From positions 100,249,209-100,313,208 of the forward strand of contig CM039462.1 in NCBI GenBank assembly GCA_022414725.1: 64,000 nt of DNA, in the 5' to 3' direction. A program made the position numbers and the translations under genes. The notes beneath the pieces are model-generated. The model was not told the origin of the DNA. It did not search any database and saw nothing but the letters and a program-made list of their open reading frames with translations. The first letter of the stretch is position 1. Each line of letters opens with the position of its first letter. Of the stretch, positions 22,969 through 53,960 are shown one piece after another. The stretch is from Microglena sp. YARC (taxonomy: Eukaryota > Chlorophyta > Chlorophyceae > Chlamydomonadales > Chlamydomonadaceae).

Positions 22969-23031
22969 ATGCCCACTGCGTCGACTGGATCCGGTAAAAC
23001 CCCTGAGGAGCAATTGATTGACGCTATCAAG
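22969..23031 (+). CDS. RMT2: RMT2 exon 1
   Basis: ATG at 22969, 21 codons MPTASTGSGKTPEEQLIDAI plus K, then donor AAG|GTATCG. Phase 0. EEQLIDAIK aligns with the first helix of the ankyrin region, and the next exon continues it as AKDNEEVDRL. Confidence 0.85.
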
Positions 23032-26000
23032 GTATCGACGTTCGGCCGAGCTCGACGATGTTCACCGATACCATCACCCACCGACAAATCGTCTAATGCT
23101 ACGATGCTACGCGTCGATGTGCTCGGTTGCAGCGGACTGATGGACAGAGGCAGCTGTACGCGACTTTCTGCCTGGCCACCATGACATGAGCAGTCAATTA
23201 CAAGAACTATCACTCTTCTATCTCCAGAGTCCTTCCCCCACCATCCCAGCACCCTTCCAACCCCCATCCCACACCACGCACCTACACCCTACACTCCACA
23301 CCTCACCCACCCTACCCTACCCCACCCCACCACCCACCCCACCTTATGCCATGCCACCTAGAAAGACCAACACCAACACCAACACCAATACCACCACGCA
23401 CCCCACCACACACCTCACCCACCCTATCCCACCCCACTATACCGCACACCCCACCCCACGCCATGCCAACCAGAAAGACCAACACCAACACCAACACCAA
23501 CACCAACACCAACACCAACACCACCAGCACCAACACGGACCCCACCCCACACCTCGCCCACCCACCCCACCACACACACCCCACCACACACCCCACCACA
23601 CTCCATGACTCCCAGAAAACACCAACACCAACACCAACACCAACACCAACACCAACACCAACACCAACACCAACACCAACACCAACATTAGCACCAGCAC
23701 CACCAAACACACCACCGCACCCCACCACCACATACCTCACCCACCCTTCCCCACCCCACCCCACACCCCACCCACGCCTAGCCTCCCAAAAACACCAACA
23801 CCAACATCAATACCGACACCAACACCAAAACCAACGCCAACACCACCATTAGCACCAGCACCACCAAACACACCACCGCACCCCCACCACCACATACCTC
23901 ACCCACCCTACCCCACCCCACCCCACACCCACCCCACGCCTAGCCTCCCAGAAATACCAACACCAACACCAACACCAACACCCACACCCACACCCACACC
24001 CACACCAACACCAACACCCACACCCACATCCACACCCACACCCTCACCCACACCGACACCGACACCACCACCACCAACTCCAACACCCACACCCACACTC
24101 ACACCAACACCAACACCAACACCCACACCCACGCCAGCACCAACACCCACACCAACACCAACAACCACACCAACACCAACACCCACACCAACACCACTCC
24201 CACACCAACACCAACACCAACACCAACACCAACACCAACACCAACACCAACACCAACACCAACACCAACACCCACGCCAACACCCACACCAACACCAACA
24301 CCAACACCCACACCCACACCCACACCAACACCAACACCAACACCAATACCACCACCCACCCCACACCCACCCCACCCCCACCCTACCCCACCCCACCCCA
24401 CCCCACCCCACCCCCCCCACCCCACCCCACCCCACCCCACCCCACCCCACACCCCGGCCCATGCCACCCACCAACACCAACACTTACACCACCACACACA
24501 CCACCACACATCTCACCCATCCTACCCCATCCCACCCCACCCCACAACCCGGCCCACGCCATGCCACCCACCATCACCAACACCAACACCACCACACAGG
24601 CAAAGGATAATGAAGAAGTAGATCGGCTGATTGGGGAAGTTGGTGCCGATGTGTGTCATCAAGACGAGGCGGGCATGTCTCCCCTGATGCACGCAGCTGA
24701 TGCGGAAAACGTGGAGGCTGTTGGAATACTGCTTGAAGCAGGTTGCCCTTGGCACATGCAAGATAAGGAGGGCTACACCGCAGGTGTGAATATGATATCA
24801 TATGCATATGATATTATATTAATATGATATTGTATGCATATGATATTATATTAATATGATGTTATATGAATTCTGCTTGAGGCAGGCTGCCCGTGGCACA
24901 TGCAAGATATGGAGGGCTACACCGCAGGTGTGAATATGATATGATATGCATATGATATTATATTAACATGATGTTATATGAATTCTGCTTGAGGCAGGCT
25001 GCCCTTGGCACATGCAAGATAAGGAGGGCTACACCGCAGGTGTGAATATGATATTGTATGCATATGATATTATATTAATATGATGTTATATGAATTCTGC
25101 TTGAGGCAGGCTGCCCTTGGCACATGCAAGATAAGGAGGGCTACACCGCAGATATGAATATGATATCATATGCATATGATATTATATTAATATGATGTTA
25201 TATGAATTCTGCTCAAGGCAGGTTGCGTGTGGCACATGCAAGATAAGGAGCGCTTTACCGCAGGTGTGAAAATGATATCATATGCATATGATATTATATT
25301 AATATGATGTTATATGAATTCTGCTTGAGGCAGGTAGCCCTTGGCACATGCAAGATAAGGAGGGCTACACCGCAGGTGTGAATATGAAATCATATGCATA
25401 TGATATTATATTAATATGATGTTATATGAATTCTGCTCAAGGCAGGTTGCCCGTGGCACATGCAAGATAAGGAGCGCTTTACCGCTGGTATGATTAAAAT
25501 TAATGATAACACCATGGATATTTTTTCCCGCTTTATTTAGCGATCGCTAGTTTTGACCCCGTTTTGGAGAAAAATATGTGTATAAAAAAGAAAACAGAAA
25601 TAAAGTTTTTTTTTGTTGTTGCCCAAAAGGGCTCCCTCAAGCAGGAGGTGTCAAGGCCTCAAAATTTCCACTTCTCCCGATTGATTTTTTCTGATAATGG
25701 GGCTGTTATCGCATGTATCATTGCGATATGATGAGACATTTTTCATGTCATTCTGAGCACCTCATTTAGGGGGGGGGGGAGGTCAGCCCTCCTCAGGTTG
25801 TTTTCTAACTTTTTACTCAGACCTCCAAATGACATTCTGAGACCACCCTTGAGTAGGCCTTGGTAAGGGCAGTCCATTGGCACCACTTTGGACCTTGTGC
25901 AATAAGTATCTACACCTTGGGTGGGTGAATGCAATAAGTATCTACCCTTGGGTGGGTGGGTGAATGGGGTCAGCCTTCCTCAGTTTTTTTCTAACTTTTT

Positions 26001-53773: not shown

Positions 53774-53960
53774 GGTGCTCTCTTGTGTGCTAGGGTTTAG
53801 GGTTTAGGATGAGCAGCTGGCTTCTTGATATGCTCTCTTATGTGCTAGGGTTTAGGGTTTAGGATGAGCAGCTGTCTTCTTGATGTGCTCTCTTGTGTGC
53901 TAGGGTTTAGGGTTTAGGATGAGCAGCTGGCTTCTTGATATGCTCTCTCTTTGTGTGCTT
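53774..53960 (+). repeat. terminal-exon tail copies with TTTAGGG units
   Basis: Three ~62-bp units of GTGCTAGGGTTTAGGGTTTA, GGATGAGCAGCTGGCTTCTT, GATATGCTCTCTT. The GATGAGCAGCTGGC part copies the end of exon 10 including its stop. Each unit has one to two TTTAGGG motifs, the plant-type telomere repeat. Confidence 0.9.

Follow-up and report, generated by a model that had tools for sequence, protein, structure and literature searches.

Repeats that cross exon–intron borders have been described before; an amphioxus Adh3 paper is reportedly tied to the so-called mirages, and the repeats of human coagulation factor VII are said to be the subject of Borensztajn 2006. The closest described system is the mirages of amphioxus, which are tandem repeats spanning exon–intron boundaries: units of 10–160 bp cross the border at either end of an exon, copies are 81–100% alike in one cluster, and AG or GT is kept in many copies but not in all (PMC3087553). 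In the available part of that report, mirages are described for a few genes, with RT-PCR and with allelic and somatic length variation (PMC3087553). Intron 7 of the human factor VII gene contains 37-bp repeats, a case that, as described, concerns one gene and one border, and the most upstream donor alone is normally used there (PMC6627357). The potato RdRp gene is reported as an example of intron gain by border-crossing tandem duplication (PMC4974935), and Introners are reported as dispersed element copies that create introns, as a process shaping introns genome-wide and more common in aquatic lineages (PMC9860276).

The arrays we describe here for the green alga Microglena sp. YARC resemble mirages in several respects: border-spanning units lie on either side of exons (at 26/52 donors and 30/52 acceptors), their spacing (median 153 bp, interquartile range 112–192) overlaps with the mirage unit sizes, and AG and GT are likewise kept in many copies and not in all. 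Unlike the amphioxus case, they were found in 38 of 52 sampled introns, in 18 of these at both ends and with quantified controls, on the basis of DNA from one assembly. The potato case shares tandem duplication across an intron–exon boundary with our arrays, but the duplication there creates a new intron, whereas the copies here sit in existing introns. Like Introners, the arrays probably reflect an intron-shaping process working genome-wide, but each set of copies is specific to the exon edge that it adjoins. Intronic minisatellites and satellites of the ordinary type are also tandem, local and diverging, and the arrays here differ from them in running into constrained coding sequence at the edge. 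The original prediction regarded this systematic form as undescribed, which has to be corrected because the amphioxus report already describes the kind, though its available part does not present it as a genome-wide feature (PMC3087553). Our literature search, judged by titles and abstract openings, turned up no account of boundary arrays occurring throughout a genome; as far as this search shows, the kind is known, and its genome scale in a green alga, by a seemingly border-blind process, is new.

The window, i.e., the whole stretch of 64,000 nucleotides analysed (C1:100249209–100313208), belongs to an assembly of 568,105,699 bases in 2,390 contigs. According to protein comparison, its plus-strand gene at 22969–53773 (window positions; all RMT2 features given below are on this strand) codes for an RMT2-type arginine methyltransferase; the closest named relatives among the 120 matches listed were those of Haematococcus lacustris (66% identity) and Chlamydomonas sp. 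UWO 241 (65%), and no near-identical protein was present among these 120. These relatives point to a chlamydomonadalean-like green alga as the host. We re-modelled the gene from the sequence with ten exons. Exons 1–8 (22969–23031, 24600–24783, 29464–29551, 30889–30995, 42190–42314, 45451–45614, 46609–46651 and 47680–47768) share one joined frame, exon 4 starting at 30889. Exon 9 (52254–52354, its start uncertain owing to an apparent frame break) and exon 10 (53708–53773, carrying the expected stop codon), whose frames do not join, are out of frame with the rest, and we infer that both contain small indels. These may be errors of the assembly or genuine breaks, the end of the gene then being broken.

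Border queries consisting of up to 40 exon bases plus 15 intron bases were searched against the whole window, and a match covering at least 8 exon bases was counted as a copy. Seven tails and five heads have border-crossing copies on the same strand, always within the intron or flank next to the exon concerned. Copies of tails with the donor region were eight for exon 2 (six spaced 112 bp at 24888–25496, and two further ones at 26688–26740 and 28034–28082), five for exon 5 (42702–44110), five for exon 6 (spaced 72/73 bp, 45664–45991), two for exon 7 (46716–46800) and eleven for exon 8 (48131–50272); the tail of exon 3 has four in an ~82-bp array (29605–29955), and the end of exon 10, including the stop-codon region, has three (53806–53948). 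Heads with their acceptors were copied once for exon 3 (29276–29330), exon 4 (30772–30812) and exon 5 (41980–42031) and five times for exon 6 (four copies spaced 128 bp at 44924–45362 and a partial one at 44168–44191), and the head of exon 8 was copied once (47097–47126); the exon 6 head query additionally gave one weak minus-strand match. For both sides of exons 1 and 9, the heads of exons 2, 7 and 10 and the tail of exon 4, no copies were found in the whole window. All seven tails listed in the original prediction were recovered in this way, and its list of heads (exons 3, 5 and 6) was correct and has been extended by those of exons 4 and 8. The exon 4 donor had also been proposed to start a satellite, and indeed a GGTAGG-rich repeat of about 9.5 kb opens at this donor (30996–40500), the motif occurring 267 times in 30501–40500 and 0 times in 40501–42500. 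When the ten exons were examined with 30-base tiles, head matches were all upstream and tail matches all downstream, and neither copies from exon interiors nor minus-strand copies were found. A search with the exon 2 peptide returned the exon itself together with seven tail copies close by and, elsewhere, five unrelated ankyrin stretches (40–43%). As a separate observation, the exon 7 donor is GC (46652–46653, GAGCAG/GCAAGT), and GC is kept in one of its two copies; a GC donor is also present in a chaperonin intron (CATCAG/GCAAGT, locus L014).

For the genome beyond RMT2, we sampled loci from profile matches of chaperonins (PF00118, 64 matches), class I tRNA synthetases (PF00133, 29 matches) and a part of the pyruvate kinases (PF00224, 79 matches). 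Five of the chaperonin matches and one of the synthetase matches were unused; the pyruvate-kinase introns come from 21 of the 79 matches, which were selected after the list had been seen, and this biased set is reported apart. Introns were modelled on the consistency of reading frame and splice sites, and after 8 of the 51 modelled were excluded for a score below 9, the 43 kept and the nine of RMT2 gave 52 introns. In this sample a border copy was counted when it covered 12 or more bases of the exon and 2 or more of the intron. Eleven distinct nested matches were set aside as likely copies; two or more of these (in L009 and L010) may be genuine exons. The fetched loci L016, L017, L023–L028, L039 and L040 have no counted intron and stand outside the 17 loci counted below; tiles in exon matches detected copies in L016 and L023–L025 and none in L017, L026 and L028.

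The median length of the 52 introns was 1,256.5 bp; the median reported for Chlamydomonas reinhardtii is 229 bp (PMC8226300). Copies of an own exon border, 185 in total, concerned 56 of the 104 edges, and 46 edges kept copies at the stricter level of E ≤ 1e-8. They were present in 14 of the 17 loci having a counted intron, on scaffolds C1–C6; 14 introns and three loci (L018, L020 and L021+L022, with six introns) had none. In the almost wholly fetched sets, namely chaperonins and tRNA synthetases, 35/72 edges and 24/36 introns had copies. Donors with copies numbered 6/9 in RMT2, 8/24 in chaperonins, 9/12 in synthetases and 3/7 in pyruvate kinases, and the corresponding acceptors 5/9, 11/24, 7/12 and 7/7. 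As controls, the same queries matched other introns of the same locus in 3/328 cases, introns of other genes in 7/4,976 pairs and the minus strand of their own introns in 1/104; with dinucleotide-shuffled introns, 0/104 edges matched in 19 of 20 rounds and 1/104 in the remaining one. The view that exon-edge copies represent a wider pattern is therefore upheld far outside the window in chaperonin, tRNA-synthetase and pyruvate-kinase genes, and the copies are not confined to the window.

We examined direction and depth with tiles from 86 modelled exons (those of RMT2 and those at the edges of all 51 modelled introns, exons shorter than 40 bp being left out). Within 0–14 bp of an acceptor, 88/179 tiles had copies upstream and 0 downstream, and within 0–14 bp of a donor, 79/178 had copies downstream and 0 upstream; at 90 bp or more inside the exon, the numbers were 22/268 (head side, upstream copies) and 21/273 (tail side, downstream copies). 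Wrong-side matches were found for 3/299 head tiles at 30–59 bp and 8/189 at 60–89 bp, and for 2/174 tail tiles at 15–29 bp and 9/293 at 30–59 bp. In the deepest head class, matches within the same exon were found for 78/268 tiles and minus-strand matches for 20; the former reflect repeats internal to the coding sequence, and neither kind is a border copy. The arrays consist of head-to-tail, local and fairly regularly spaced units; 85% of the 185 spacings are within 60–260 bp, and the spacings are evenly distributed modulo 3 (63/62/60). In many arrays the exon edge itself is the first unit in register (e.g., 107, 107, 104 and 107 bp, or 128, 128, 128 and 128 bp), an exception being the first exon 8 tail copy, which is 399 bp off. 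A search of the 568-Mb genome with the 128-bp unit of the exon 6 head gave at least seven matches, six of them in its own array. The remaining one (C1:100192872–100192993, 74%) is located 101 kb upstream of RMT2 and is possibly a paralogue or a relic.

The source of the copies is probably a genome-wide tandem duplication that is blind to borders, combined with selection against it only inside coding sequence. A duplication across a donor would keep the exon whole and its donor functional on the 5′ side, and a duplication across an acceptor would do the same for the exon and its acceptor on the 3′ side, so that border-crossing duplications would be nearly neutral if the spliceosome picks the exon-proximal site; a duplication within an exon would change the protein and be removed by selection. 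Further rounds would extend the array and mutation would erode the copies, the exon serving as the reference copy fixed by selection, and the molecular event may be slippage, unequal exchange or break repair. The fraction of introns having a copy that crosses a given point was 0.43–0.49 at the donor or within the final 10 bases of the exon and 0.55 in the acceptor region, compared with 0.57–0.70 (measured from the donor) and 0.59–0.65 (from the acceptor) at points 100–1,600 bp into the intron and 0.23–0.28 at points 40–60 bp inside the exon. Within the window, the DNA flanking RMT2 is duplicated too, in a very uneven manner: the proportion of duplicated points was 0.64 in 1–14 kb, 0.26 in 20.8–22.9 kb, 0.29 in 53.9–64 kb and 0.82 in the RMT2 introns. 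The value for 1–14 kb speaks for blind duplication, and the low values immediately before and after the gene speak against it.

It has also to be considered whether splice sites or exon edges start the duplications, e.g., through R-loops, pausing or nicks, with introns growing inward from both exons. This is unlikely, even though several observations are in its favor: tail copies are all located 5′ of head copies in 18/18 two-sided introns, the stretches from each border to its farthest copy sum to a median of 57% of the intron (38 copy-bearing introns), copies tend weakly to be more diverged the farther they lie from the exon (14/22 arrays, p = 0.048), and the duplication rate at 15–100 bp upstream of acceptors (0.68–0.69) is slightly above that of the intron interior (0.59–0.65), a possible mild bias to the acceptor side. 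Because the observed rate is lower at the border than in the intron, exon edges as seeds are not supported, and the copying of the stop-codon end of exon 10 shows that duplication does not depend on a splice site. In simulations with intron lengths up to 4,000 bp, a scoring rule only similar to the BLAST rule and no formal parameter fit, seeded growth gave a border value of 0.92–0.96, above every interior point (0.73–0.85) and unlike the data, whereas the blind model, in which random duplications with a median of 150 bp were rejected only when the mRNA changed, gave from a 500-bp start 0.53 at the border, 0.49–0.76 in the intron interior and 0.35–0.41 in the exon interior, with copies in 0.76 of introns against 0.73 observed. 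This start alone fits; the three other blind runs, starting from 100 or 230 bp, over-predict copies (0.92–1.00 of introns) and place the border slightly above points 50–100 bp into the intron, and each of the four blind runs gives a lower value at the border than at points 400 bp into the intron. The original prediction is thus sustained as far as duplication across exon–intron borders is concerned (14/17 loci), and not in its assignment of a special seeding role to exon ends and splice sites, where the rate is no higher.

Two further candidates for the history of the arrays were set aside. One is a polarity of growth away from the exon, for which we have the above weak trend by itself (14/22 arrays). 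The other is pure amplification internal to the array: in 23 of 28 arrays, copies were no less similar to the exon (mean 0.889) than to one another (0.861), a comparison in which frozen exons and the picking of copies by exon similarity both bias in the same direction. With copies picked in this manner, their likeness to the exon fits a selection-frozen exon that would be the ancestor. Four pyruvate-kinase paralogues carry an intron at one shared place, with lengths of 1,675, 538, 1,526 and 1,165 bp; head copies are present in 4/4 and tail copies in three, and both intron length and copy number vary. When 60-base exon-only queries were used, 7/8 tail copies and 12/18 head copies were closest to the exon of their own paralogue, the proportion for head copies in the shortest intron (538 bp) being 1/4. 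Since most copies are nearest to their own exon, the arrays have for the most part grown, or been homogenised, gene by gene.

We next consider the splice sites contained in the copies, using a set in which 12 or more bases match on both sides of the border (99 donor copies from 24 edges and 90 acceptor copies from 28 edges). GT is intact in 77/99 decoy donors, with GC in five more, and AG in 74/90 decoy acceptors, in agreement with the claim that many decoy splice sites have been produced. The match rates of the GT bases (0.90/0.87) and of the AG bases (0.91/0.87) are within the range of neighboring bases, and these copies give no sign of selection either removing or keeping decoy sites. As predicted from the sequence, use of an intact decoy donor would lead to an in-frame stop in 82/82 cases; of the 74 intact decoy acceptors, 58 would bring in a stop, 13 would shift the frame and 3 would leave it open. 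The protein would thus be truncated or shifted for 153 of 156 intact decoys. Because intact decoys would nearly all break the protein, the cell presumably uses the exon-proximal splice site and ignores the decoys, as is reported for the donors of the factor VII repeats (PMC6627357). It is very unlikely that the copies are functional, as alternative exon ends or splicing regulators under selection: the retention of GT and AG in most copies would suit such a role, but these bases match no differently from the range of their neighbors, and all the intact donors and 71 of the 74 intact acceptors would introduce a stop or frameshift.

An assembly artefact, in which exon edges were duplicated through errors in long reads or scaffolding, seems highly improbable. 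The out-of-frame exons 9 and 10 of RMT2 do point to a flaw in either the assembly or the gene, and a misassembled mirage has been reported in the amphioxus draft (PMC3087553); nevertheless, the copies have diverged (69–100% identity), often with steady spacing, they recur in the 14 loci on scaffolds C1–C6, and within 15 bp of the edge they are never on the wrong side. An origin from Introners, or from some other mobile repeat that inserted at the borders of exons, is hardly credible, in spite of one architecture being common to many introns and of Introners being known to give rise to new introns (PMC9860276), because exon-edge queries match their own introns and hardly those of other genes, six of the at least seven genome matches of the exon 6 head unit are in its own array, and neither these queries nor the genome-wide search with this one unit revealed a near-identical element at many unlinked introns.

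Returning to border-blind duplication filtered by coding selection, we tentatively propose a broader picture, which we regard as possible and not as established: boundary duplication of the mirage type may be the main engine of intron length in this genome, the exon edges may act as selection-frozen master copies, and introns may be sandwiches of a tail array and a head array in which the spliceosome chooses by position (the outermost donor and the last acceptor) and not by local sequence. The positional choice is suggested because several near-identical decoys are present in most introns (185 copies in the 52 counted). Many introns retain datable copies of their own border, so that intron growth can be read directly in the genome, and paralogous introns can be used as natural replicates of this growth. 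A hard question on splicing also becomes testable, namely how the spliceosome distinguishes a real site from near-identical decoys that share its exon context at a distance of a few hundred bases, and the decoys are suggested to drift with no detectable counter-selection. Gene annotation is affected as well, because exon-edge copies mimic extra partial exons in homology searches. For example, pyruvate-kinase profile matches appear as rows of overlapping partial 'exons' at C2:56233562–56234233, C3:47150384–47151312 and C6:8759491–8760270, which are likely exon-edge copies showing in a plain HMM search.

Within the window, the same pattern had been claimed for three other genes, and this has not been established, the border matches being equivocal. 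An exon at 15085–15285, belonging to a gene that we take to be NMNAT-like (its Pfam match is slightly below the cut-off), has one tail-side copy, which is located inside the exon itself. For the frames at 59700 (plus strand) and 54600–54790 (minus strand), single downstream matches begin just past the guessed exon ends and are accompanied by minus-strand or upstream ones, and the border search found no edge copies for an F-box-like exon. Tandem repeats with periods of 18, 33 and 81 are present at 19689–19838, 20077–20311 and 17175–17464, respectively, in long open frames of the NMNAT-like gene; unlike the spacings of the intron arrays, these periods are all multiples of three. The periods of 18 and 33 in open frame match what a coding-sequence filter predicts and, as two cases, are only suggestive. 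Poly-C or poly-G runs of 27–61 bases occur in repeats at 27777–27805, 28765–28791 and 9309–9455. In the profile searches of the genome, PF00521 (topoisomerase II/IV A) gave 108 matches on C1–C6 and small contigs; 16 of them cover exactly profile positions 1–279, usually followed by a second match from position 284, and a few contain stops. Our guess is that this is a multicopy element, possibly mobile or virus-derived.
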